Shown here: positions 2 through 13,604 of the stretch, one piece after another
Numbering within the stretch: the first letter of the stretch is position 1
Layout of the letters: the number at the start of each line of letters is the position of its first letter
Assembly (NCBI GenBank): GCA_030681675.1
Contig: JAUXRP010000015.1
Span: 1-64,000, forward strand
DNA from: Candidatus Planktophila sp.
Lineage (GTDB): Bacteria > Actinomycetota > Actinomycetes > Nanopelagicales > Nanopelagicaceae
Length of the DNA stretch: 64,000 nucleotides
Direction: 5' to 3'
The notes under the pieces: generated by a model
Told to the model about the DNA's origin: nothing
The model's input: the letters and a program-made list of their open reading frames with translations, nothing else
Databases searched by the model: none
Program-made: the position numbers and the translations under genes

Positions 2-151
2 GACCTGAGTAAATGGCTACCAGAACACCCAGGCGGGGGATCCCTAGTGTTGGTTATGTGTGGTGTTGATGGGGCAGCTGCATTAAGGGACCAGCATAAA
101 TCCGAGCAAGATAACGCATTGTCAATGTACTACATCGGTGATTTAAAGTAA
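2..151 (+). CDS. Cytochrome b5-like heme-binding domain protein, C-terminal part
   Basis: Only the last 49 codons are present; the gene enters from the left edge. The reading frame shows an HPGG heme-ligand motif followed by a CGxDG segment, a DQH motif and a terminal YYIGDL, the order seen in cytochrome b5-like heme/steroid-binding domains. By family knowledge the His of HPGG is an axial heme ligand; the second ligand may be the His of DQH. Actinobacterial versions are often secreted or membrane-anchored, but the N-terminus is outside the window so location cannot be judged. It appears to be the last resident gene before the accessory region. Confidence 0.7.
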   Translation, partial: DLSKWLPEHPGGGSLVLVMCGVDGAAALRDQHKSEQDNALSMYYIGDLK

Positions 152-209
152 CCCAAAAAAAACTTTTACCAGATGACGGAAGTATTGACACGATTGATTT
201 TATCAACTT

Positions 210-338
210 ATGAAAAGGCCGACCGTCCTATTCGTAATGGCGCTGTTGTTTTCATCCGTTTTCTCAATAACGCCAAGTAGTGGAGCTGTTCCTGGAAGCA
301 AGTGCAATAAAGTTGGAACCACGAAAATTGTTGACTAA
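210..338 (+). pseudogene. Truncated small secreted-protein remnant
   Basis: A 42-codon frame starts with a good signal peptide: Lys-Arg, a hydrophobic stretch from about residues 5 to 19, then a small-residue region ending near Gly-Ala. It continues with a short segment containing Gly-x-Lys-Cys-x-Lys-x-Gly-x-Thr-Lys and stops. That segment resembles the start of a short Cys/Lys/Gly-rich module that I recall from secreted proteins of related Actinobacteria, where a second Cys and a conserved Trp follow. Here a TAA comes first. The likeliest reading is a gene broken at the island edge. A genuine short secreted peptide cannot be excluded. Confidence 0.4.
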
Positions 339-385
339 TTCTCAATTTCAGCTAAGTGTCTTCAATAACAATGCTTGACCTATGT

Positions 386-415
386 GTGGGAGCAGGGACT
401 TCCCGTCCTTGCCTT
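386..415 (+). repeat. Diverged direct repeat, copy A
   Basis: Begins GTGGGAG and is centred on GGGA-CT-TCCC. It matches 2121-2150 at 25 of 30 positions in the same orientation. The two copies bracket the 453-codon gene at 703-2064. Function unknown: a decayed duplication, a recombination boundary, or a protein-binding site upstream of each downstream gene would all fit. Confidence 0.5.
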
Positions 416-472
416 GGTAAATCTCCCAAGATTTGAACTCTTGAGTCATTTCGGTTTCCTTTATGTGAGGCT

Positions 473-489
473 TGAGTGAGGTTCACTCA
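473..489. other. Short perfect hairpin in the intergenic stretch
   Basis: TGAGTGA and TCACTCA form a 7-bp perfect inverted repeat around GGT. There is no following T-run, so it is not an obvious terminator. It could be an operator or chance. Confidence 0.3.
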
Positions 490-702
490 GTTGTTTGGTA
501 AGAGTAGCTCTTGTTGATGAATTGTGTGGGTTCGCTATCAAAGCAAACTGCGGAAGGGGTAACACAAATTCGCCTTAGACCCAATCCACTATTATTGAGT
601 ATTGTATCCAGCAGGCGGGATTCTTCTCAGTAAAAAGGAAGGACGAAAGATTGTCACCAATGCTTTCATGAAAGCGGTTTAATCAGTCAAGGAAGGAATT
701 TT

Positions 703-2064
703 ATGTGGGAAAAATTCTCAAAGCAGAAGAGTGACATTCCCTCACACATTAATCTTTTTGATTCTAAACTTGTCTTAGAACCCTTAACTGTCATATTTGA
801 TCCATCTCTCGAATCCAGTAATTCCCCCCCTCTCGACTTCCTCCGCGAGCTCACAAATATTGAGAATATCAATACATACTCATATCGAGATGTCCATGGA
901 TCCTTGATAGGGGATGAATTGAAAGCCGGTGAGTACTGTGTAAACTTTGGCGATTTGGACGAGTCTGATAACTTGCAAGTGTTCCAAAGAAAAATCGATT
1001 CAACCCATAATTCTGGAATTTGGGGTTATTCAAATTATGTAAAGATCTGCAAAGATTGGCAAGACGCCACTGCGATTCGAGAGCCCGCGTCAGATACTTC
1101 TTTATTGGCATACTTGGGAAGCGCTTCTCTACATCACAACATATTCGTTACTCGGGATTCATTTTTACTTGCACACCAAAATCTTCGTGCAACCTTTATA
1201 TTGAATGAATTAGAGGCACTCGGGTTCCTAGGTCTCTATATGAGGCTTCAAGACCGAATAGTTTACTTCGCGAATGGAAGAGCGACGTTAGAGGCGGATC
1301 GTGCTTGGTCGGAATTCCTTGAGGTTCGATACTTGATGGACAGGGTGGTTTCTTTTTCAATTTACGGCAATTCAAGTGGCGATTGGCAAGAACTGCTGAA
1401 GGGCGCGCTACAGCGTGCAGAGCAACTTTTACGAATTCGGGACGATTTGGCAATTTATCAAATGAATAAAGATAACTCGCTTGGCATGGTGCCTGTAACT
1501 TCATTTGAGACGTTTGCCTTGTTTGGAGTTGGTCTTTTTGACTGCATTGCAAAGGCCATTAACTCCGCCCTATCTTTTGAAGTTTCTGACTTTAACTGTA
1601 AATTCCAAAATTCAATATTTGAGAGAAAATTAGAAAGCAATTCTGTAGACGCGTACAATTACTATCAGAATAGTGGCATGAAAGAACTTCTCAGTTTGCT
1701 TAGAGAATTCAGGAATACAGTGCACGAGCAACCTTCGGGTTTCACAAAAATTGCGAATGCGCGAGAGGACTATTTGATTCGATTGTCTCATAACGCGTCA
1801 GCTTCCTTTATCAAACATCAAAGCGCACTCGGACTAATGGGTTGCCTTGGATTTCTGGATCCTGAATCGAATGCTCATGTGAAATCACTTGCAATTGTCG
1901 AGATTCTTCTGCCTGCCATCTTTCTAAAGTCAAACGAGTTAGTCGATCTCATTCAATGGCCACAAAATAATCCGCCGCCTCCCTTGTTAAGCGCGAATCC
2001 ATCGGATTGGAATTCGGAGTTCAACGCAATTCGCAATCACTCTTTATATGGAATAGGTATTTGA
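703..2064 (+). CDS. Accessory protein of unknown function, possible HEPN-like C-terminal half
   Basis: 453 residues, no signal peptide and no clear membrane segment. I do not recognise the family. The N-terminal half is rich in beta-prone and acidic segments (SLIGDELKAGEY, CVNFGDLDESD). The C-terminal half is mainly helical and contains REFRNTVHE with Arg337, Asn338 and His341. An Arg-Asn-(x)-His arrangement in a late helix recalls HEPN ribonuclease-like domains such as those of ApeA-type abortive-infection proteins, but spacing here is R-x3-H, one residue short of the usual R-x4-6-H. AAGGAA lies 7 nt before the ATG. The codon use is more A/T-rich than kgd and its neighbours, and the gene sits beside another HEPN-like gene and a restriction system, so an anti-phage role is plausible but not shown. 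Confidence 0.6.
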   Translation: MWEKFSKQKSDIPSHINLFDSKLVLEPLTVIFDPSLESSNSPPLDFLRELTNIENINTYSYRDVHGSLIGDELKAGEYCVNFGDLDESDNLQVFQRKIDSTHNSGIWGYSNYVKICKDWQDATAIREPASDTSLLAYLGSASLHHNIFVTRDSFLLAHQNLRATFILNELEALGFLGLYMRLQDRIVYFANGRATLEADRAWSEFLEVRYLMDRVVSFSIYGNSSGDWQELLKGALQRAEQLLRIRDDLAIYQMNKDNSLGMVPVTSFETFALFGVGLFDCIAKAINSALSFEVSDFNCKFQNSIFERKLESNSVDAYNYYQNSGMKELLSLLREFRNTVHEQPSGFTKIANAREDYLIRLSHNASASFIKHQSALGLMGCLGFLDPESNAHVKSLAIVEILLPAIFLKSNELVDLIQWPQNNPPPPLLSANPSDWNSEFNAIRNHSLYGIGI

Positions 2065-2120
2065 AGTTGTCACAACGTCATTAATGACGAAGGGCATTTA
2101 TTGGATTTAATAGCAAATTT

Positions 2121-2150
2121 GTGGGAGAAGGGATTTCCCATCTTTGACTT
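2121..2150 (+). repeat. Diverged direct repeat, copy B
   Basis: Begins GTGGGAG and is centred on GGGA-TT-TCCC; 25 of 30 bases match 386-415. It starts 56 nt after the 453-codon gene and about 170 nt before the next start codon. Confidence 0.5.
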
Positions 2151-2320
2151 CGTGGCGTACTAACTAATATTTTTTGGCGTAATTTCGAATTGCTTTTATG
2201 ATCGTTCAAGCCTAAAAAAACTTTCGTCCAAACCCAGAAAGCTCTCAATTTCGGCAAAGCCGAAAGCCCCACTTTGCAGGTTACTTGCCGTAGGTTTGGC
2301 AAATACAAAGGAGAATAAAC

Positions 2321-3034
2321 ATGGGGCGTAGGACAAGACTGCGAGGCAATCCAACATTGGCGAAAGACCATGCCGCTGGTGCCACGGTTATTTATACTCA
2401 GAACCTTGTGCATGATCCGTGGGGTGGGATCGCCTATCACTGGCCGTTCTTTTGGGATTTTGAGAAACACCTCACTAACGTTGCCGCAGACGAGTTGAAG
2501 CAGTTACAACAGGAGGTTTTTGACATCCCTCTAGGCACTTCCAATACAAGAACGATCACAAACCTTGATCTACTAGTGCGAATCTACGGCGCTGGCGCGG
2601 ACATGGTCTCGCACGCAGTCAGATCAGTGCAGTACCTGGCACAGTCGATGGAGAGTTGGAAGGATGCCAACTACGAATCAGAAGTTGCGACCGAGAGATT
2701 GAGGAAGGCAACGGAACTAATCGGGCTCAACAATCATCAAAGTGATGCCGGCTACCAGGGGCTTACCGAGATGTTGAGAGTGCGCAATGCTATTGAGCAC
2801 CCAAAGGGTTCGACGATCTATCAGGGGGACCCTGGCCGATGGGATGAAGTCCCGCTGGCATGGATGATCTCTGATCGTGGATTGAAAGCGTACGAGCGGT
2901 ACTCGTCGTGGTTTGTCCTTTTAGCAGCGGATTGGAGCGGGTACTGCGAAGCGCATCCAATGTCCCTAAACCTTGACGGGTTAGTACGCGGTGTTGAATC
3001 AATAGTCTCTTCAAAGAAGCCAACAAAGAAGTAA
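2321..3034 (+). CDS. Accessory HEPN-like protein of unknown function
   Basis: 237 residues, soluble, largely helical after residue 60. The segment MLRVRNAIEHPKG contains Arg155-Asn156 and His160, that is R-N-x3-H, which fits the R-x4-6-H active-site signature of HEPN ribonucleases and lies on a predicted late helix as in that fold. No nucleotidyltransferase (MNT) partner is adjacent, so it would not be a classic HEPN-MNT toxin-antitoxin pair. ATG is preceded by AAAGGAG with good spacing, supporting this start. The C-terminus is basic (SSKKPTKK). It lies in the same direction as the restriction-modification genes 200 nt downstream. The HEPN reading is inference from one motif plus helical character; a domain search could overturn it. 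Confidence 0.6.
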   Translation: MGRRTRLRGNPTLAKDHAAGATVIYTQNLVHDPWGGIAYHWPFFWDFEKHLTNVAADELKQLQQEVFDIPLGTSNTRTITNLDLLVRIYGAGADMVSHAVRSVQYLAQSMESWKDANYESEVATERLRKATELIGLNNHQSDAGYQGLTEMLRVRNAIEHPKGSTIYQGDPGRWDEVPLAWMISDRGLKAYERYSSWFVLLAADWSGYCEAHPMSLNLDGLVRGVESIVSSKKPTKK

Positions 3035-3149
3035 TCGTCTAATACATTCTGGGGCTGTGCGAGAATTACTGGAGCATCCATCTTTCACGCCGCAGAGACC
3101 AAAGGACTCAGTAGAGATAACGTGATAGTGCCAATAAAGGGGCTAGTTG

Positions 3150-3175
3150 AATTCCACGAAATACCTAGTGGAATT
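3150..3175. promoter_or_regulatory. Inverted repeat upstream of the restriction gene
   Basis: AATTCCAC and GTGGAATT form perfect 8-bp arms around a 10-nt spacer, 66 nt before the GTG of the restriction gene. The position suits an operator controlling the restriction-modification pair, but no controller (C) protein gene is visible nearby. Assignment is tentative. Confidence 0.35.
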
Positions 3176-3240
3176 TGTGTGGTTCCCAAATCAAAATGTA
3201 ATAGAAGGGATTATTAGGACGGTGCTGATACATTCTTTCC

Positions 3241-4056
3241 GTGAATCAACCCTTAGGTGAAGTTTTTGGACTTATGGCGGAAGATACATCTCCGAAAGCG
3301 AAGCTGGAAAGAGAAAGTAATAATTGTCCGTTTTCTTCAAATCTTTGCACAAAAGATAAAGCAAATGATCCCCTAGGAGTGTGTTCCGTCCGGGATGTCA
3401 ATCAAAATCTAGTCATCACATGTCCAGTTAGATTCAAAGAGGATATGATAATCGCGGAAGAGGTATCGGAGTTCTTTTTCCCTGGCAATGATAATTGGGC
3501 GCTAATACCGGAAGTAAGACTCGACGATATTCATGGGAAAAGCGCCGGAAATATTGACCTCGTTATTGCGCTTCTCGATGAGGATAGGAAGATTATTGAT
3601 TTCGGCTCGGTAGAAATCCAAGCTGTTTACATATCCGGCAATGTTAGAGAACCCTTCAAAGCATTTATGAAAAACCCAGAACTCTTTATGGAGCAACCCT
3701 GGAAAGGAAATTACTATCCAAGGCCAGATTTTTTATCCTCCTCTCGAAAGAGACTCATTCCGCAAGTTGCGTATAAAGGCGGGATCTTGCAAAGTTGGGG
3801 AAAGAAGCAGGCAATTGTCATAGACAAGCCATTTTTCGAAACTATTCCCACATTTCCCACGTGCTTAAAGGAGGAAGCAGATTTAGCATGGTTTATCTAT
3901 GAACTGCATCCAAATGGAGAAAATAAATTCAATCTTAAGCTATCCAAAACAATTTATTGCAAATTTCTTGACATGATAGACATTATTAATACTCCACAGC
4001 CTGCCCTGCTGGAAGATTTCATGACGTACCTGGATGGTAAGTTGAGGAGATTATGA
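3241..4056 (+). CDS. NotI-like type II restriction endonuclease
   Basis: 271 residues. The N-terminal part has four cysteines in the NotI arrangement: CPF (Cys29), LCTK (Cys36), PLGVC (Cys48) and ITCP (Cys61), which in NotI hold a single iron in a Cys4 site. A PD-(D/E)xK-type core follows: Glu91, the segment GNIDLVIAL with Asp106, and VEIQAV with Glu125-x-Gln127, where Gln replaces the usual Lys. This ExQ form is consistent with the NotI family. The GTG at 3241 is chosen because the preceding residues (PLGEVFG) also fit the family N-terminus; no Shine-Dalgarno sequence is evident, so leaderless translation is possible. The stop overlaps the methylase start by ATGA, so the two are translationally coupled. 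The target sequence cannot be inferred from sequence alone. Confidence 0.82.
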   Translation: MNQPLGEVFGLMAEDTSPKAKLERESNNCPFSSNLCTKDKANDPLGVCSVRDVNQNLVITCPVRFKEDMIIAEEVSEFFFPGNDNWALIPEVRLDDIHGKSAGNIDLVIALLDEDRKIIDFGSVEIQAVYISGNVREPFKAFMKNPELFMEQPWKGNYYPRPDFLSSSRKRLIPQVAYKGGILQSWGKKQAIVIDKPFFETIPTFPTCLKEEADLAWFIYELHPNGENKFNLKLSKTIYCKFLDMIDIINTPQPALLEDFMTYLDGKLRRL

Positions 4057-4931
4057 AACCCTCAGCGATTCAACTCGAGTTACTAACAGAAGAAAGTTCC
4101 AAGCCCGTAAACGTATCCTCGGTTCCTCAAAGATCGCCTTTTAGATACCCTGGCGGTAAAACATGGCTAATTCCGACAGCCCGTAAGTGGCTTGCATATC
4201 AAAAGCCAAAAATTCTTATAGAACCTTTTGCTGGTGGAGGAAGTATTTCATTGTTGGCAGCTTCAGAGGGGTTTGCGGATTCTATTGTCATGGCGGAGTT
4301 AGACCCGGAGGTAGCAGCAGTTTGGCATACCATTTTGTCATCTGACTCGGAATGGTTAGCGACATCAATTCTTGATTTTGAGCTTACATCGCAAAATTTG
4401 GTTGATGAACTTTCGGTGACTCCAAGGAGCACTAAGCGCCGAGCGCTGCAAACTATACTAAGAAATCGAACCTCCCACGGCGGAATCATGGCTCCTGGTT
4501 CAGGAGTAATGAAGAACGGCGAAAACGGAAAAGGGATTACTTCACGGTGGTATCCTCAAACGCTCTCGGCTCGCATACGTGCTATATCAGAGTTTGCACA
4601 CAAAATCACTTTTGTTGAATGTGACGGGATTGAATTGATATCGAAATATGATTCATCAAATTCTTGTGTATTCATTGATCCGCCGTACACTGCAGGTGGA
4701 ACAAAAGCTGGAAAGCGCCTGTATAAATTCTCGCAATTAGATCATGACGAATTGTTCAAAATTTCATCCAACCTGCTCGGTGACCCTTTGCTTACTTACA
4801 ATGATGCTTCGGAGTTACATGATTTGGCATTAAAAAATAATTTTGTATGTAAGAAGGTGTCAATGCAAAACACCCATTTAAATGAGAAGTTCGAACTCCT
4901 CATCGCACGCGATTTCCCGTGGATACCATAA
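4053..4931 (+). CDS. D12-class adenine-N6 DNA methyltransferase (Dam-like)
   Basis: 292 residues. Motif X is FRYPGGKTWLIP (from about residue 30), motif I for S-adenosylmethionine is FAGGGS (about 59-64), and motif IV is DPPY (Asp209 to Tyr212), the order of the alpha/D12 group that methylates adenine N6. It presumably protects the host against the endonuclease encoded immediately upstream, with which it shares an ATGA overlap. The length is typical of Dam-family enzymes. D12 methylase with a NotI-fold endonuclease implies a target containing at least one A:T pair, unlike NotI itself (GCGGCCGC). The partnership is inferred from overlap; specificity is unknown. Confidence 0.88.
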   Translation: MKPSAIQLELLTEESSKPVNVSSVPQRSPFRYPGGKTWLIPTARKWLAYQKPKILIEPFAGGGSISLLAASEGFADSIVMAELDPEVAAVWHTILSSDSEWLATSILDFELTSQNLVDELSVTPRSTKRRALQTILRNRTSHGGIMAPGSGVMKNGENGKGITSRWYPQTLSARIRAISEFAHKITFVECDGIELISKYDSSNSCVFIDPPYTAGGTKAGKRLYKFSQLDHDELFKISSNLLGDPLLTYNDASELHDLALKNNFVCKKVSMQNTHLNEKFELLIARDFPWIP

Positions 4932-5250
4932 AGGATAAAGGAGTTTGAAGTTCGAACAGGGATAACTTCAGGTGAAGATGAGTAATGCCTCTTAACTTTT
5001 GATGGCCCCTTTAGCCAAATCCTTGCTATTCGGTATACGGATGATTTTGGAAGAACTTTTATTTTGCCCTTGAATAGCACTTGAGGTGGATTTCTTAGTC
5101 AATCACGTTTCTTGGATACAAAATCGAAAATGTCTGCTCGGCATACAGAGAGCACCCCTAGCGCAATCTAGGTGCTTGACATATCTATCGCGAATTCCAT
5201 CGTGGGAGAAAAGCGGGGTGTTCTTGCTCAAATGGGTTAATCTCTCTTCC
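4932..5250. other. Intergenic stretch between the restriction-modification pair and the small membrane protein
   Basis: No convincing gene. A stem formed by GCAC..CTAG and CTAGGTGC (about 5152-5175, with a CC bulge) is followed directly by TTGACA at 5176-5181, a possible -35 element, but I cannot place a good -10 box. Confidence 0.4.
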
Positions 5251-5622
5251 ATGGCACAAGATCCTTCCAAAGCAGCTAAGGCCCGCGCAGTAGTGGCATC
5301 CCTATTGATTGTCGAAGCGGTATTGATTGCCGCTGTAGGTGTGTGGCTAATCGTTCTAACAATCAAGGCCGATAGTTTTGAACTTTCACCTCTTTTGGGT
5401 GAACTACTTTTTATCGTTCTCGGAAGTGCCGGCTTAGCGGCATCAGCAGCTGGATATCGCCGAGGGAAGTACTTCGGTCGAGCCCCAGCCGTACTTGCTA
5501 ATTTGATCGCGCTCGGGGTGGTCTCTTATCAGGTGCAAGCAGGGCTCTGGTTTGTCGCAATTCCTTTGGCCGCACTTGCACTGGCCACAGTGGTGGCAGC
5601 TCTTCGGGCAATTCCTGAGTAA
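5251..5622 (+). CDS. Small four-helix membrane protein, actinobacterial type
   Basis: 123 residues from the ATG at 5251. The frame stays open upstream, but residues before MAQDPSK look random, and MAQDPSKAAKAR is a typical short cytoplasmic start before helix 1. Four hydrophobic segments follow: about 12-32, 44-60, 76-90 and 95-113. The end is LRAIPE-stop. Function unknown; by style it belongs to small integral membrane proteins with a conserved YRRGKxxGRAPAVLxNLIAL core. Its last 40 residues align without gaps to a frame at 9689-9805 (20 identities of 40) on the other side of the 1212-residue gene, so a second, broken copy exists next to kgd. No strong ribosome-binding site precedes the ATG. 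Confidence 0.7.
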   Translation: MAQDPSKAAKARAVVASLLIVEAVLIAAVGVWLIVLTIKADSFELSPLLGELLFIVLGSAGLAASAAGYRRGKYFGRAPAVLANLIALGVVSYQVQAGLWFVAIPLAALALATVVAALRAIPE

Positions 5623-5660
5623 TTTGTATTGTAGGTTTTTAATCACCTTAGGGAGATCAA

Positions 5661-5749
5661 AACTATTTCGCACTTCAGTAAAATAGTTCAGTCTGCAATT
5701 ATAAATCAATTACTACTGCAATGGGAACTAATTGTCCCTTCACTGCAAT
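5661..5749. promoter_or_regulatory. Repeat-rich leader upstream of the 1212-residue gene
   Basis: Contains an 8-bp inverted repeat AACTATTT/AAATAGTT (5661-5688), a TATAAA box at 5700-5705 that could be a -10 element, three CTGCAAT direct repeats (5693, 5716, 5743) and GGGA-N8-TCCC between the last two. This density suggests a regulated promoter, but no binding protein can be named. Confidence 0.35.
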
Positions 5750-5772
5750 ACTCTTGTTGGAAGGGGGTTTAA

Positions 5773-8700
5773 ATGTCGGAGACAGCGCTATTGCGGAAAC
5801 CTTGGACTGGGTTAAATGGTGCGAACTTAGCTGCAACTGCAGCCGCATTGCAACTTGTCCCCGAAAATATGGGTTTCTTGATTCGCCTACAACGACTTGC
5901 ATTGATTGGAGTTTCATTGCCAAATAGTGGGCACACTCAAGCAGTCAGCCCAAGTAAGTTGCGGAGTTTGCTAAATCACTCATTAGTCAATGGATTTGAA
6001 ATTCGAGAATTAGAAGATCCCTACTCAGATCTTTATTCTGTCGAGATTCCAACTACCCTCGGTCCACGCAGAGTGATTCAAGGACTCACGGAAAAATCTG
6101 GTCATACTGCAAAACTATTATCGAAAGCAATATTCAGTAAAACAGGTAACAAACTAAGTGACGAATATCGTTCCGCAGCTCATCTTTTAGAGATGATCCT
6201 ATTGGGACTCAGCGACAAAGTCTGCATACGTAGCGGTATTAAACGGGGACTTGCCCCGCTTGATTCACACTCCAATACAGTGCAAGTACCAGAGCAAGAT
6301 TCATTAGCGAAATTGAAGGCTGCTGTTACGTTTAGTTTAGGAGAGTTGAGCGAACTCTTTCCGAGCACAGGTATTCCAGTAGTACGTAGGCTTTCGGTTA
6401 TAGAGGGTGGTCATCCACTGGTCTTAAATATGTCAATTGATTATCAACTTATTTTGAGGCCGTTTCTGTTTACAGGTGATGGAATTATCATCACGAATCC
6501 AGGTGAACTTGCCGCTTCACTACGTCATCATTACATTGTTGAATCGGTTAAGCAAGGTTGTGGCGAATTGTTGGCAACAACTTTTAGAGAACAAGTCTTG
6601 AACGAGGCAAGCTCTCTAATTTACTTGCTAGGTGGACGCGAAATCGGTGTTAATGAAGAATTCAGTGATCCTCTTGTTAGTCGACGAAAATTTATTTTGA
6701 TTGACGATAAAGTTATTGATCTGTTTGTTGTCACAGATGACTTTTCAAATTACTCGAGTGACAATCCATTTGGAGCCTGGAAAATAGAAGATCTCGGGAG
6801 AAGAGTTCAGAATGTGATTGATCCTCAAGGTGAAATTAACGTTGCTAATACAAATACGCTTCGACTTGTTGTATTTGAAGGGATTGGAAGAGATGTTTCC
6901 ATTGGTTTTGAATCTATGAAGAACCCTGGACCAGTTATGGTTTTATCTCTAGACGAATTGCAAGTAATGATTGAACTTGAAGGCTCAGACCCATTATTTC
7001 TCTGGCGATTTGCAGAGGCGGATTCGAAATTGGATGAGGAAACAAATGTGTTGTCTTGGTCGAAGTTAGATAGATTTGCGTGCTATAGACAAAATGCCAA
7101 TAGTTACTATTTAAGTGATGAAAAGAAACCGAGTGGTATGACTATTGCCGTTGGTTATGGCTTGCCGCTTAGAGTAGAAGCCCATAAGCGCTACGATCAT
7201 CATTTAGTTCAAAGTCCAAATGGAAAATCATTTGTCATGGTTCATGCGTTGTACGGTGTTGATATCGCACCCATCTACACTACCCAAATAGTAGGAGACC
7301 GCGATCTATTTTTGGTGGAAGGTCTGGATTGGAACATTTGGGTTGGTGCCTCCAATAAAATTGACCCCGCACTTTTGGAAATTACTCGGAATCTTCTTGA
7401 AGCCTATGTTTTTTGGATGTGGCAAATAGCCATCAGATCGCCTGAACTAATTACTAAGGTGGTAAGTGCAACTGGGCATCTTGACATTGACATTTCGCTT
7501 TCAAAGCCAGATGAATGGAAAAATGCCCTAAATGGTGTTTTCGAGAAGAATCAAGAAAGTGAATGGGTCACTTTACGAAAATTGGAACCAGGGCATCTTT
7601 GGATTGATGTTTCATCTGTTGGACTTATTGAAATGGGGTCTGAAGAAAATGATGCGGATAGAAGCATACTCTCGCACCTTCTAAACTCACTTAATATTCT
7701 TTCAAAAAACACGACTGAAAATTCGGCTTCTCTTTTAGAGGAGTTAGCACCAATTGGAAATAAGAGAATACTTCGACTGTCATCTTTCAATGAAGTCTTA
7801 CTGCGAGCTGGTCAATTACCTTCACCACGTTTTATCCAGAACGCTGTTACAGCAGTTGTTTTAGATGACTTGGGCGACTGGTTGCTAAGTGAGGATATTC
7901 AGATAGGTCCAATACAGAGCAGTGAGAGAACAGCAATCTTGAATAGAGTTGTTTCACACACATTCGATTTATTGAAGGATGCCATATCGGGATTATCGCC
8001 AGAAGGGTTGATTCAATATTTAATGATTAAGGACGAAGCGCTGATTCGGAATGAAGCATTTCGCTTACTAATCATGTCCTCTCGAGTAGCCTGCTTTGGT
8101 GGTACTAGCCAGTTGGTCGAAAGACTCACCAGAGAACATCTGAATCACGTCGAAGCTGTTGTAGCGAATCGATTTTTAATTGAGTATGTGTCAGCGACAC
8201 AACCCAGCGGCGTTCACCCAATTACTTTGGAAAAATATGATTACTTACTTGCGCTTTCGGCGGAAATCGTGCAGCGAGGGACGCATTCGGACGCGCTCAA
8301 ATACGGACTTTCAGAAAGTGAACTGTCAATACTTCCCTCTGGGAGGTTGGGTACATCTCGAAACGAAAGATACCAACTAGGAACGAAAGCCCTACTTTTT
8401 TCTTACGCTACATCGCAGGAGAAAATCATTCTTGGGAAAGAATCGCGACTAGAGAAACAATCGATGAACGTTATTTCTGAATCTACAATTGATAGTGCAA
8501 TGCTGTCGGAGTTTGGTTTTACTTTTATGGAATTTGCCCAAGCAATCGGAGAAATGATTTCACTAGGTGATACGAATGGCCTAAAAGAGCCATATGAAGC
8601 ATCGCTAACTGAAGTCAAAGCACATCTTTCAAATTCACTGGGCTGGTCCCAAACCAAGATTGAGGCTTTTTTGGAACACTTAACACTCGGACCTCGATTA

Positions 8701-9411
8701 AATTTCCTGTCACCGAAACCTGATGATTACCCCTGGCGATACAATCGTGAATGGTCTTATATTCGAAGACCTATTATAATTTCTAACGGCAAAAACGGAG
8801 AGACGATTTTAGTGTGGGGTCCGCGCCGTCTTTGGACAGTGGGAAGATATTGGATTGAACTAGTTTATTCAGCGAGACACAGAGCTCGTTCGGATCCCAT
8901 GAAAGCTTTGCTCGGAAAAATTAAGCAACAACGGAACCGAGAATTTGAAGTTATTGTTGGAGAAGCTCTCACGTCGACAGGTTTTTTCTTGACCAAGATT
9001 AGGGTTTCGAAAATAGCAGGAAAGCCGATGGTGTCGAACAAAGGAGAGGATCTCGGCGACATTGATGTTTTGGGAATTCAACCATCCAAAAAATTGATTT
9101 TGGTGGTAGAAACTAAAGATTTTGAAATGGCTCGAACTCCAATGGAGTTAGTAAATGAAGCATTGAAAATATTTAGCGACAAGCACAGCGCGGTTGAGAG
9201 ACTTGCTCATCGCGTTAACTGGATAATGGAAAATCTTAAATCCTTCTTGGCTCATTATAATATTACCGAGGATATGAACGACTGGGTTGTACTTCCGGTT
9301 GTAGTTACAAGTATGAGCCTGCTAACTCCACTTGTTCTTACATCCGATGTAAAAGTTTTACCTGTAGAAGATTTCGCTAATTGGATTAATTTGGAAATTC
9401 TTGGGCACTAA
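5773..9411 (+). CDS. 1212-residue accessory protein with C-terminal PD-(D/E)xK nuclease domain
   Basis: I do not recognise residues 1 to about 1040, which are mostly helical and soluble with no Walker motif or helicase signature visible. The last 160 residues form a restriction-endonuclease-like domain: a helix with REFEVIVGEAL (Glu1057/Glu1059 region), then LGDIDVLG with Asp1096 and Asp1098, then LVVETKD with Glu1113-x-Lys1115, the order E..D..ExK of Mrr/NERD-like nucleases. AAGGGGG lies 7 nt before the ATG at 5773, fixing the start. Codon use is visibly A/T-rich. It stands alone, without methylase or antitoxin of its own, and sits between two copies of the same small membrane-protein end. 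A single-gene defence nuclease with a large sensor part is the best inference; phage-defence activity is unproven. Confidence 0.65.
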   Translation: MSETALLRKPWTGLNGANLAATAAALQLVPENMGFLIRLQRLALIGVSLPNSGHTQAVSPSKLRSLLNHSLVNGFEIRELEDPYSDLYSVEIPTTLGPRRVIQGLTEKSGHTAKLLSKAIFSKTGNKLSDEYRSAAHLLEMILLGLSDKVCIRSGIKRGLAPLDSHSNTVQVPEQDSLAKLKAAVTFSLGELSELFPSTGIPVVRRLSVIEGGHPLVLNMSIDYQLILRPFLFTGDGIIITNPGELAASLRHHYIVESVKQGCGELLATTFREQVLNEASSLIYLLGGREIGVNEEFSDPLVSRRKFILIDDKVIDLFVVTDDFSNYSSDNPFGAWKIEDLGRRVQNVIDPQGEINVANTNTLRLVVFEGIGRDVSIGFESMKNPGPVMVLSLDELQVMIELEGSDPLFLWRFAEADSKLDEETNVLSWSKLDRFACYRQNANSYYLSDEKKPSGMTIAVGYGLPLRVEAHKRYDHHLVQSPNGKSFVMVHALYGVDIAPIYTTQIVGDRDLFLVEGLDWNIWVGASNKIDPALLEITRNLLEAYVFWMWQIAIRSPELITKVVSATGHLDIDISLSKPDEWKNALNGVFEKNQESEWVTLRKLEPGHLWIDVSSVGLIEMGSEENDADRSILSHLLNSLNILSKNTTENSASLLEELAPIGNKRILRLSSFNEVLLRAGQLPSPRFIQNAVTAVVLDDLGDWLLSEDIQIGPIQSSERTAILNRVVSHTFDLLKDAISGLSPEGLIQYLMIKDEALIRNEAFRLLIMSSRVACFGGTSQLVERLTREHLNHVEAVVANRFLIEYVSATQPSGVHPITLEKYDYLLALSAEIVQRGTHSDALKYGLSESELSILPSGRLGTSRNERYQLGTKALLFSYATSQEKIILGKESRLEKQSMNVISESTIDSAMLSEFGFTFMEFAQAIGEMISLGDTNGLKEPYEASLTEVKAHLSNSLGWSQTKIEAFLEHLTLGPRLNFLSPKPDDYPWRYNREWSYIRRPIIISNGKNGETILVWGPRRLWTVGRYWIELVYSARHRARSDPMKALLGKIKQQRNREFEVIVGEALTSTGFFLTKIRVSKIAGKPMVSNKGEDLGDIDVLGIQPSKKLILVVETKDFEMARTPMELVNEALKIFSDKHSAVERLAHRVNWIMENLKSFLAHYNITEDMNDWVVLPVVVTSMSLLTPLVLTSDVKVLPVEDFANWINLEILGH

Positions 9412-9643
9412 AGGTTTCAACATTTTAATGTGTCAGAATATTTGACTTACAGACAATTGCTTAATATTTCTTTGTACTTCAAGAGTGCCAGACACCTGAG
9501 CTATGCGTAACCTGCCATCTTTCTCTATCGGAGTTTATACCTGGACTTTTTGAAATTGTGTAGTAAGTATAATTACCCTCTAAAGTCAATATCTCCTGCG
9601 AGGTTGTATTATATAGAAGCCAGTTTATAATAGGATTTCTTCA
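9412..9643. other. Intergenic stretch after the nuclease gene
   Basis: A/T-rich, many stops in all frames, no recognisable gene or RNA. It precedes the membrane-protein remnant and probably contains the right junction of the inserted segment. Confidence 0.4.
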
Positions 9644-9808
9644 TTGATTTGTGTTTCTGTCAGACTCTCAGCTGCTGTGTTAGTCAACCTCATTGCTTTA
9701 AGTGTTTTCGCTTATCAGATCGATGCCAGTCTCAGAATATTCGCAATTTCGTTGATCACTCTTCCCACTGCTAAATTTGCAATGGCACTTCGCTCCACTC
9801 CCGAGTAA
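9644..9808 (+). pseudogene. C-terminal remnant of the small membrane protein
   Basis: A 54-codon frame ending in LRSTPE-stop. From NLIAL onward its 40 residues align gap-free with the C-terminus of the protein at 5251-5622, 20 of 40 identical, including the terminal Pro-Glu. Upstream the frame is closed by a TAG at 9614, so the N-terminal half is missing. At about 50 percent identity this is not a fresh duplication. It is better explained as the resident gene's remnant after an island carrying its own diverged homologue was recombined in. The remaining 9809-9941 is the kgd leader. Confidence 0.6.
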
Positions 9809-9941
9809 ATAATCTCTCTCAGGAATTAGCCGAAATCGCGCTTATTTACGTTATTACGTGTCGTAAGTACCAATTTCTGATTTAGAATTGGGCCGTACTG
9901 CCGATAGGCTTGCCCCCGTTCTACGCAGAAGGGGTTCGCCA

Positions 9942-12900
9942 GTGTCGGCACAGGATTTTGGGGCAAATGATTGGCTCGTCGATGAAATGTACGAGCAGTA
10001 TGTGGCCGACCCAACATCTGTTGACCCGAAGTGGGTTGAGTACTTTAAGGCAAATAAACCCGGCAGCGCTCCGGTTTCAAACGCCCCATCATCAAATCAA
10101 CCCTCTCCAGCACTCTCAAAACCAGTTCCCCCAATTCCTAAGTCAGCGCAGATTCCCGTGCAGCAGATTCCAGTTCAACAACCAATTATTAGAGATACTG
10201 CTTCGCCACAACCAACTCCGGCAGATCCAGTTGTTAAAACAGCTCCGGTATTAGCCACGCCAAGTGCTTCAACACTTGTGCCTATTCGCGGAGTATCGGC
10301 ACGTGTTGTTCAAAGTATGGAAGCTTCACTTACAGTCCCAACTGCCACATCGGTTCGTGCAATTGCCGCTAAGTTAATGATTGATAACCGAATTGTGATC
10401 AATAACCACCTTAAGCGGGCACGCGGTGGAAAAACATCTTTTACTCACATAATCGCATACGCAATGATTAAGGCAGTTCACGCGATGCCCGAGATGAATG
10501 CTTTCTTTGGCGAGATAGATGGAAAGCCGGCCGTTGGCCATCCCGAACATATCAACTTAGGTATTGCTATCGATTTAGCAAAAGCCGATGGATCACGCCA
10601 ATTATTAGTGCCATCGGTTAAGGGATGCGAGGCCATGGATTTTGCCCAGTTCTGGCGTGCATATGAGAGCGTCATTAAAAAGGCACGTGGAGGAACATTA
10701 ACCGTTGAAGACTTTGCCGGGACTACCGTATCGATAACAAATCCCGGAACTCTCGGCACAGTGCACTCTGTACCACGTTTAGTGCAAGGGCAGGGATTAA
10801 TTCTTGGGGTAGGAGCACTTGATTATCCCGCTGAGTTCCATGGAACTAGCGATGAAATGCTTGCCCGAATGGCTATCAGCAAAGTTGTAACTCTAACGAG
10901 TACGTACGATCACAGAGTTATCCAAGGTGCACAATCCGGTGACTTCCTGCGAAGAATGAATGAGCTTTTATTAGGTGCAGATGGTTTCTACGATGAAATC
11001 TTTGCATCACTTCGAATCCCATATGAGCCAATTCGATGGGCAAAGGATTTTGAATTTAGTAAAGATGAACAGATTAACAAGACTGCGCGAATTCAGCAGT
11101 TGATTCATGCCTACCGTACTTTTGGTCATTTAATGGCCGATGTTGACCCGTTGGAATATAAGCAACGCTCACACCCTGATTTAGATGTTGTTACACATGG
11201 TTTAACGCTGTGGGATCTTGACCGTGAATTTGCAACTGGTGGCTTTGGCGGAAAAACCTTTATGTCACTTCGCAAGATTCTAGGCTTATTGCGAGACTCT
11301 TACTGTCGAACTGTCGGCGTCGAGTATATGTATATTGAAAATCGCGAAGAGCGACAGTGGATTCAAATGCATGTAGAAGTTGGTGCGCAAAGATTTGCAC
11401 CAGAGGAGCATCTCCGAATTCTTCATAAACTCAATGGTGCGGAAGCCTTTGAAACTTTCTTGCAGACTAAGTTTGTTGGGCAAAAACGTTTCTCACTAGA
11501 AGGTGGCGAATCAGTCATTCCATTGCTAGATGCTGTTCTCTCTAGCGCTGCCGATCAAGGATTAGATGAGGTATGCATTGGAATGCCGCACCGCGGGCGC
11601 CTCAATGTCTTAGCTAATATCGCGGGAAAATCACACGGACAGATATTTCAAGAGTTTCAGGGACACTATGCAGAGAACCAAGTACAAGGCTCTGGCGATG
11701 TTAAGTACCATTTAGGCACCGAAGGGGAATTTACTTCACACTCTGGCGCCACAACAAAGATTTATTTAGCAGCTAATCCATCTCATTTAGAGGCTGTGAA
11801 TCCAGTTTTAGAGGGCATTGTTCGTGCAAAGCAAGATAAATTGAATATTAAAAACGCTTACTCAGTATTACCTGTTTTGCTTCATGGAGATGCATCGTTT
11901 GCGGGGCAAGGTGTGAACGCTGAAGTTTTGCAGATGTCACAGCTGGGCGGTTATCGCACTGGCGGAACAATTCATATCGTCGTTAATAACCAAGTGGGTT
12001 TCACTACGTCACCGATTGCATCGCGTACTGCTACGTACTCAACCGACTTCGCCAAGATTATCCAAGCCCCAGTGTTTCATGTGAATGGAGATGATCCTGA
12101 GGCCTGCGTTCGTATTGCGCGTTTAGCTTTTGAATACCGACAACAGTTTAATAAAGATGTAGTAATCGACATGGTTTGCTATCGTCGCCGCGGTCACAAC
12201 GAAGGTGATGAGCCAAGTTTTACGCAGCCACTTATGTACAAGATGATCGATGCTAAACGTTCGACCCGAACTCTCTATATCGAAGCACTCATTGGCCGTG
12301 GGGATATCTCACTTGATGAGGCCGAAGAAGTCGCACGTGATTATCAGAGCCAGCTGGAAGCCGTGTATGCCGCCCTAAATAATCTGCAAACAGAATCTGA
12401 TCCGAACTTTAAAGCACCTGTTGCACCCGATGCTCACGAAATTATTACTTCAATCAGCGAGGCCCTAGCCCGAGAAATTGCTGCAACGCAGTCGGCAGTT
12501 CCTGAAGGCTTCCATGTTCATCCAAAATTATTACCGCAATTAGCAAAGCGAATTGAGTCACTCAATGACTCCTCAATTGATTGGGCGACCGGAGAAATGC
12601 TTGCCTTCGGCTCTCTTCTCAAAGAAGATCGCCCAATACGCCTTGCAGGTCAAGATGCACGACGGGGAACATTTAGTAATCGCCACGCAGTTATTATCGA
12701 TAGAGAAAACGGAAATGAATGGACTCCTCTTCGCGCACTCAATAGTGATGAGAACCATTTCTTTGTGATCGATTCACTGCTCAGCGAATATGCTGCGATG
12801 GGCTTTGAATATGGTTATAGCCTCGAGCGCGAGGATGCATTGGTGCTTTGGGAGGGTCAATTTGGTGATTTTGCTAACGGCGCTCAAACAATTATCGATG

Positions 12901-13604
12901 AGTTTATATCTTCAGCCTTACAGAAATGGGGCGAGCGTTCATCGCTAGTTTTATTACTGCCACATGGATATGAAGGCCAAGGTCCTGACCACTCATCGGC
13001 ACGCATTGAGCGATATCTGCAACTGTGTGCCGAGCAAAATATGACCGTAGCCCAACCCTCTACACCGGCTTCCTACTTTCACTTATTACGCTGGCATGCC
13101 AAGAACCCAGCTCGTCGACCATTAATTATCTTCACACCGAAGTCAATGTTGCGACTTCGCGCCGCGGCGTCATCTCTATCTGATTTCACTAGCGGACATT
13201 TCAGACCGGTTATTTCAGATGATTCAGTAAACAATGCATCGCGACTTATATTTTGTTCAGGAAAGATTTATCACGACCTAGTCGCAGAACGCGCAAAAAC
13301 AGGTGAAACATCAACTGCAATCGTTCGTTTGGAACTTCTATATCCACTTCCAATTGAAGAAATGCTTGCAGAAGCTAATAAACATCCCAATGCAAATTTA
13401 CTTTGGGTGCAAGATGAGCCGGCCAACCAAGGCCCTTGGTCACATATTGCACTTCGAACATCTGAGCAACATGGAGGTCGCGGCTTTGGTTCTAGAATCT
13501 TGCGTCGTGTATCGCGCCGTGCAACTGCATCTCCTGCTACTGGAAATCACCACTTGCATGAGGATGAGCAAAAAGCCTTAATGCTCGAAGCTTTTACGCG
13601 TTAA
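9942..13604 (+). CDS. kgd: Multifunctional 2-oxoglutarate decarboxylase/dehydrogenase E1 with fused E2 acyltransferase domain
   Basis: 1220 residues from GTG at 9942, preceded by AGAAGGGG at 7 nt; the longer upstream frame adds an atypical 18 residues. The start VSAQDFGANDWLVDEMY matches the family. Order: an N-terminal SucA-type binding segment, a Pro/Gln-rich linker (about 40-110), an E2-type catalytic domain ending in TYDHRVIQGAQSGDF (HxxxD-like site) and no lipoyl domain, then the thiamine-diphosphate E1 domain with GMPHRGRLNVL, HGDASFAGQG, VNNQVGFTTS and NGDDPEACVRIA. This is the actinobacterial OdhA/Kgd architecture, feeding succinyl units in the TCA cycle together with separate E2p and Lpd. 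Regulation in relatives involves an FHA-domain inhibitor (OdhI/GarA); none is visible here. Confidence 0.95.
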   Translation: MSAQDFGANDWLVDEMYEQYVADPTSVDPKWVEYFKANKPGSAPVSNAPSSNQPSPALSKPVPPIPKSAQIPVQQIPVQQPIIRDTASPQPTPADPVVKTAPVLATPSASTLVPIRGVSARVVQSMEASLTVPTATSVRAIAAKLMIDNRIVINNHLKRARGGKTSFTHIIAYAMIKAVHAMPEMNAFFGEIDGKPAVGHPEHINLGIAIDLAKADGSRQLLVPSVKGCEAMDFAQFWRAYESVIKKARGGTLTVEDFAGTTVSITNPGTLGTVHSVPRLVQGQGLILGVGALDYPAEFHGTSDEMLARMAISKVVTLTSTYDHRVIQGAQSGDFLRRMNELLLGADGFYDEIFASLRIPYEPIRWAKDFEFSKDEQINKTARIQQLIHAYRTFGHLMADVDPLEYKQRSHPDLDVVTHGLTLWDLDREFATGGFGGKTFMSLRKILGLLRDSYCRTVGVEYMYIENREERQWIQMHVEVGAQRFAPEEHLRILHKLNGAEAFETFLQTKFVGQKRFSLEGGESVIPLLDAVLSSAADQGLDEVCIGMPHRGRLNVLANIAGKSHGQIFQEFQGHYAENQVQGSGDVKYHLGTEGEFTSHSGATTKIYLAANPSHLEAVNPVLEGIVRAKQDKLNIKNAYSVLPVLLHGDASFAGQGVNAEVLQMSQLGGYRTGGTIHIVVNNQVGFTTSPIASRTATYSTDFAKIIQAPVFHVNGDDPEACVRIARLAFEYRQQFNKDVVIDMVCYRRRGHNEGDEPSFTQPLMYKMIDAKRSTRTLYIEALIGRGDISLDEAEEVARDYQSQLEAVYAALNNLQTESDPNFKAPVAPDAHEIITSISEALAREIAATQSAVPEGFHVHPKLLPQLAKRIESLNDSSIDWATGEMLAFGSLLKEDRPIRLAGQDARRGTFSNRHAVIIDRENGNEWTPLRALNSDENHFFVIDSLLSEYAAMGFEYGYSLEREDALVLWEGQFGDFANGAQTIIDEFISSALQKWGERSSLVLLLPHGYEGQGPDHSSARIERYLQLCAEQNMTVAQPSTPASYFHLLRWHAKNPARRPLIIFTPKSMLRLRAAASSLSDFTSGHFRPVISDDSVNNASRLIFCSGKIYHDLVAERAKTGETSTAIVRLELLYPLPIEEMLAEANKHPNANLLWVQDEPANQGPWSHIALRTSEQHGGRGFGSRILRRVSRRATASPATGNHHLHEDEQKALMLEAFTR

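Follow-up and report, generated by a model that had tools for sequence, protein, structure and literature searches.

The window analysed here is the whole stretch of 64,000 nucleotides from Candidatus Planktophila sp. (contig JAUXRP010000015.1, positions 1 to 64,000), in which two foreign segments lie on either side of a small membrane-protein gene of the backbone. The one to the right, a recent insertion, carries a large gene distantly related to Upx, a known single-gene antiviral defence of bacteria. The features discussed below are as follows, on the forward strand (+) unless marked otherwise:

143..5186, strand not assigned: foreign segment left of the membrane gene, with a NotI-type restriction-modification pair and a weakly HEPN-like gene
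3241..4056 (+): NotI-family restriction endonuclease (PF12183, E=4e-51)
4053..4931 (+): D12 adenine methyltransferase (closest PADLOC model PD-Lambda-5_B)
5251..5622 (+): backbone small membrane-protein gene, directly 5′ of kgd in most nearest relatives
5622..9893 (+): insertion of 4.3 kb, replacing an 84-bp spacer of the relative G509 (comparison with relatives)
5759..5767 (+): Shine-Dalgarno-like GGAAGGGGG 5′ of the ATG (sequence)
5773..9411 (+): Upx-like gene, intact, 1212 aa
6562..6972 (+): predicted second, degenerate restriction-endonuclease-like core, residues about 264-400 (from the model, moderate confidence)
8731..8772 (+): family signature PW(R/K)(F/Y)xR...P, residues 987-1000 (alignment)
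8893..9408 (+): C-terminal PD-(D/E)xK nuclease domain, residues 1041-1212 (model, alignment)
9058..9066 (+): codons D1096-I-D1098, motif GDxD (alignment)
9109..9117 (+): codons E1113-T-K1115, motif ExK (alignment)
9671..9808 (+): decayed 3′ fragment of the backbone membrane gene (residues 79-123 and stop), at the right insertion end
9888..13604 (+): backbone kgd (2-oxoglutarate dehydrogenase E1/E2), right flank

The reading frame at 5773-9411 begins with ATG and runs for 1212 codons, as an earlier sequence-only reading had described it. Its product can be aligned over the entire length, uninterrupted by stops, with at least 13 other bacterial and archaeal proteins; because of these full-length homologues and the GGAAGGGGG site, it is a real gene, and a chance reading frame is ruled out. 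Two features of the gene that had been taken as distinctive are less so. A leader described as repeat-rich holds one 10-nt pair and one 12-nt imperfect inverted repeat, and no tandem repeats were found in it. Codon use, described as A/T-rich, is no more than mildly unusual: overall GC is 0.415, against 0.43-0.49 in most backbone genes, but at third codon positions the GC content of 0.348 falls within the backbone range of 0.33-0.44.

Comparison within the genus shows the gene to be accessory rather than housekeeping. A Upx-like gene is present in one of 135 genomes, and the sites are empty in the closest relatives; this distribution rules out a housekeeping gene. In the two closest relatives (G509 and G492) the membrane gene and the first aligned residue of kgd are 121 bp apart. 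The cargo of the insertion consists of the Upx-like reading frame alone and the decayed membrane-gene copy. Within 5622-9893 there is no integrase or transposase, and the insertion ends show no target-site duplication or terminal repeats of 9 nt or longer. Since none of these was found, we infer that the gene was acquired by recombination through flanks originating in another lineage.

The junction between the membrane gene and kgd is a recurrent insertion site in the genus (loci L068, L069, L070, L071 and L052), with inserts of 2.3 kb in G507, 3.9 kb in G525 and 10.5 kb in G534 and G535. The 10.5-kb insert looks like sugar-transport genes, and in G024 an MmeI-type enzyme adjoins the membrane gene at the same junction; across genomes the cargo comprises an MmeI-type enzyme, a sugar-transport-like operon, SDR and unknown genes. 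The junction is a variable locus, and not one reserved for defence genes. Segment 143-5186, to the left of the membrane gene, stands where the relative G492 has type II/IV secretion (pilus-type) genes. The gene had been placed in an island with restriction and HEPN-like genes: the NotI-type endonuclease and the D12 methylase are real, while the HEPN-like neighbour has a weak Pfam match (E=0.025).

The protein had been called unrecognised, with its first 1040 residues left unnamed, and here the earlier description does not hold. The NCBIfam model for Upx (NF042954) matches residues 715-1157 (E=3.3e-27) and, separately, the N-terminal half (E=1.9e-5), and the PADLOC model for Upx (PDLC02221) matches with E=1.2e-23. 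Pfam has no model for the protein; an NHL repeat match at residues 348-368 (E 0.19) was dismissed as noise. A family profile of 12 rows (the window protein and 11 homologues) finds one solved chain, PDB 9wuf, over residues 9-1187 (E=1.4e-93). The Foldseek title of this entry, released 2026-02-11, is “Cryo-EM structure of Upx”, and a C-terminal piece of the chain (408 aa) scores 736 bits against the NCBIfam Upx model. The structures agree as well: an AlphaFold model of the window protein (1200 residues, pLDDT 79.6, pTM 0.77) matches 9wuf end to end in Foldseek (E=4e-44, TM 0.66) and in VIA-align (Z 29.2 over 1101 residues, rmsd 7.0).

The window protein and Upx are colinear over their full length, share the overall fold and the C-terminal PD-(D/E)xK core (GDxD/ExK), are encoded by single genes and are of similar size (about 1240-1272 residues in Upx and 1212 here). 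Sequence identity to 9wuf, however, is about 17%, and the window protein reaches 94.2 bits where the NCBIfam equivalog cut-off is 1900. Relatives score between these values: Bosea 283, Methanosarcina 230, Bacillus 183, Hymenobacter 162 and Dormibacterota 135 bits. In a tree the window protein pairs with Actinotalea (support 100/99) inside a ten-row branch that stands apart from a group of Salmonella, Sinorhizobium and Bosea Upx (likewise 100/99). The window protein is thus a distant, full-length member of the Upx superfamily in the broad sense and not a Upx equivalog; with a score so far under the cut-off it belongs to a separate branch. Given that score and the low identity, the tested activity of Upx may not carry over to it. 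The kind of gene is already known, in that the family is named and a structure solved.

Gao et al. (2020) reportedly described Upx as a defence gene. Upx has been found in genomic-island hotspots of Pseudomonas (PMC12629846) and classed under nucleic-acid degradation (PMC10855318); a literature search found no paper describing its mechanism.

An alignment-based genome scan yielded homologues; direct single-sequence scans of genomes and viral contigs gave none. Full-length homologues occur in Acidimicrobiales, Dormibacterota, Pyrinomonadaceae, Bacillus, Planctomycetota, Methanosarcina, Actinotalea, Bacteroidota and Helarchaeota, and on two Deinococcus plasmids. A phage-borne gene was considered and rejected, relatives being absent among phage records and IMG/VR contigs. 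In chosen neighbourhoods, looked at without a background count, the homologues recur beside defence and mobile-element genes, and none was seen as a conserved housekeeping gene outside islands. The neighbours include a NACHT protein (Deinococcus), SIR2 (Hymenobacter), Schlafen/AlbA (Dormibacterota), Avs1-like and Aga-HEPN genes (Helarchaeota), a PLD-helicase with a DUF1156 methylase (Methanosarcina), TIR (Pyrinomonadaceae), and TIR and caspase (Bosea). Transposases, a TrwC relaxase and a phage integrase lie near the homologues of Acidimicrobiales, Actinotalea and two further actinobacteria. No conserved partner gene is shared across these neighbourhoods.

Several variants were seen along the way. 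In one Pyrinomonadaceae locus (L021:10025-17403) a pair of Upx-like genes stands in tandem with 6 nt between them; downstream come thymidylate synthase and a fusion of a TIR domain with a dTDP-sugar epimerase. Two Bacteroidota proteins (L026, L028) carry at their N-termini a SEC-C-like zinc motif, GRNDPCPCGSGKKYKxC, which the window protein lacks. A very distant Upx-like protein (L012:358-9151; 18 bits against NF042954) has a type ISP restriction enzyme and a NERD-like protein as neighbours. Two further loci resemble the Upx-like gene in the C-terminal nuclease domain alone: one is a short remnant (L014:10414-11265), the other a 1301-aa protein with an unknown N-terminus near a phage-integrase-like gene (L066:2203-6108).

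The sequence-only reading had located a C-terminal nuclease core at Asp1096/Asp1098, Glu1113 and Lys1115; the positions are correct and the residues conserved. In an alignment of 18 homologues that takes in Salmonella Upx, G1095, D1098, E1113, K1115 and R1147 are present in all 18 and D1096 in 17. The signature upstream is comparably constant (W988 and P1000 in 18 of 18, P987 and R992 in 17), and the residues that are invariant or nearly so across the set comprise N626, R800, E804, D840, W988 and P1000 in addition to the nuclease residues G1095, D1096, D1098, E1113, K1115 and R1147. Structure prediction, proposed earlier as a check on this part, returned a PD-(D/E)xK fold for residues 1041-1200. 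The model has a helix at 1041-1068, strands at 1073-1078, 1097-1103 and 1108-1115, a helix at 1123-1134 and a strand at 1172-1179: this is the alpha-beta-beta-beta-alpha-beta order of the core, with the aspartate on strand 2 and (D/E)xK on strand 3. In a structure search residues 1041-1200 resemble the folds of XisH, AF1548, Can2/Card1, NucS and McrC. For XisH, AF1548, McrC and NucS (EndoMS) the likeness is confined to the fold of the C-terminal domain (Z 6.8-10.2 over 102-118 residues), whereas identity is low (9-22%) and the domain architecture is unlike. Most named relatives with the PD-(D/E)xK fold cut DNA.

A second region may have a fold of this type. The full-model structure search aligned residues 112-469 with restriction enzymes, among them BspD6I and HindIII, and residues 80-500 were therefore modelled alone (pLDDT 77.7). 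The top match of this model is Upx (Z 21.4 over 395 residues). The next 49 matches have Z of 5-8.7, values that chance arrangements can also produce, and 36 of them have a restriction-endonuclease-like fold. Of the 49, 20 carry titles of restriction enzymes or related nucleases: BspD6I (Z up to 8.7), HindIII, FokI, XisH and EcoT38I, as well as NucS, Can2, MspJI and McrC. Another 16 are RPB5 and TIP26, which have the restriction-endonuclease-like fold, and 13 are acetyl-CoA carboxylase. Matches of the IRAP/ACC type to middle parts of the protein came without catalytic or sequence support and were taken as common arrangements. The catalytic (D/E)xK is absent from the third strand of the middle region, where residues 319-321 read VVT, and the conserved K313 and D322 sit in turns. 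Although each Z is within reach of chance, the fold class is consistent across matches, and we therefore regard the middle region, with moderate confidence, as a predicted catalytically dead restriction-endonuclease fold.

A chain that combines a predicted inactive nuclease-like fold with a PD-(D/E)xK domain at the C-terminus, there the active partner, recalls Can1, a comparison of how the proteins might work and not of membership. In Can1 the inactive nuclease-like domain aids DNA binding and the active one nicks DNA (PMC6981274). The window protein differs in its much larger N-terminal part; no CRISPR link or cyclic-oligoadenylate sensing was found for it, and Pfam gives no match to a CARF domain.

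Taken together, kinship to Upx, the homologue neighbourhoods and the accessory status favour the earlier idea of a single-gene anti-phage effector with a large sensor part and a terminal nuclease. The gene was probably acquired horizontally, and its product is best read as a Upx-superfamily nuclease that forms a single-gene defence system, with phage defence and DNA cleavage as its likely functions. The first roughly 1000 residues would serve to bind DNA, to recognise a phage cue, or both, and would keep the nuclease inactive; upon infection, the C-terminal domain would cut DNA with a divalent metal. If the middle region is dead, each monomer would have a single active site, and the product may be DNA nicks, by analogy with Can1. 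The protein probably acts alone and does not need ATP, because the insertion has no ATPase domain or partner gene.

An unlikely alternative is a modification- or structure-dependent restriction enzyme, whose N-terminal part would read a DNA mark or sequence and whose nuclease would cut directly, with no infection switch. The resemblance of the nuclease domain to XisH, AF1548, NucS and McrC folds fits such an enzyme, as do the depositors' name for the Upx chain in the PDB (“Restriction endonuclease”) and the NotI-type pair across the adjoining membrane gene; against these, Pfam recognises no DNA-reading domain and the insertion has no cognate methylase. Less probable still is an abortive-infection toxin, with the C-terminal domain attacking RNA or giving protection through sequestration instead of cleaving DNA: no CARF or other nucleotide-sensor domain was found by Pfam, and most of the named fold relatives cut DNA. 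What speaks for an RNA target is that Can2/Card1 are among the closest nuclease folds, Can2 being called a dual-specificity nuclease in the title of its report (PMC7969007). A role outside defence, for example in DNA repair or mobile-element maintenance, with the gene a chance passenger in a variable region, seems very improbable. The insertion locus of relatives does have non-defence cargo too (sugar-transport-like and SDR genes), but the kinship to Upx is full-length, defence neighbours recur in several phyla, and the absence of the gene from 134 genomes of the genus means that it has no housekeeping role.

The defence-nuclease reading can be carried one step further, tentatively. It is possible, though we would not favour it, that proteins throughout the Upx superfamily are pseudo-dimers made by fusing two restriction-endonuclease folds, the N-terminal half holding a dead copy (perhaps a sensor or DNA clamp) and the C-terminus a live one, and that they act as stand-alone infection-triggered nickases. 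If so, such a nickase would be common to bacteria and archaea.

For the family, the finding widens the range of Upx. Beyond the proteobacterial records, which score high here, it takes in a small-genome actinobacterium and, by way of the protein's relatives, archaea, Deinococcota, Acidobacteriota, Bacteroidota and Bacillota. The scores that this branch reaches under the curated models lie well short of their cut-off. The main interest, a modest one, lies in the breadth of the branch and in the testable idea of a dead nuclease. The divergent homologue set marks about 30 invariant residues which, together with the solved Upx structure and the dead-nuclease idea, provide direct mutagenesis targets for asking by what means a single large protein that apparently works without ATP detects phage.
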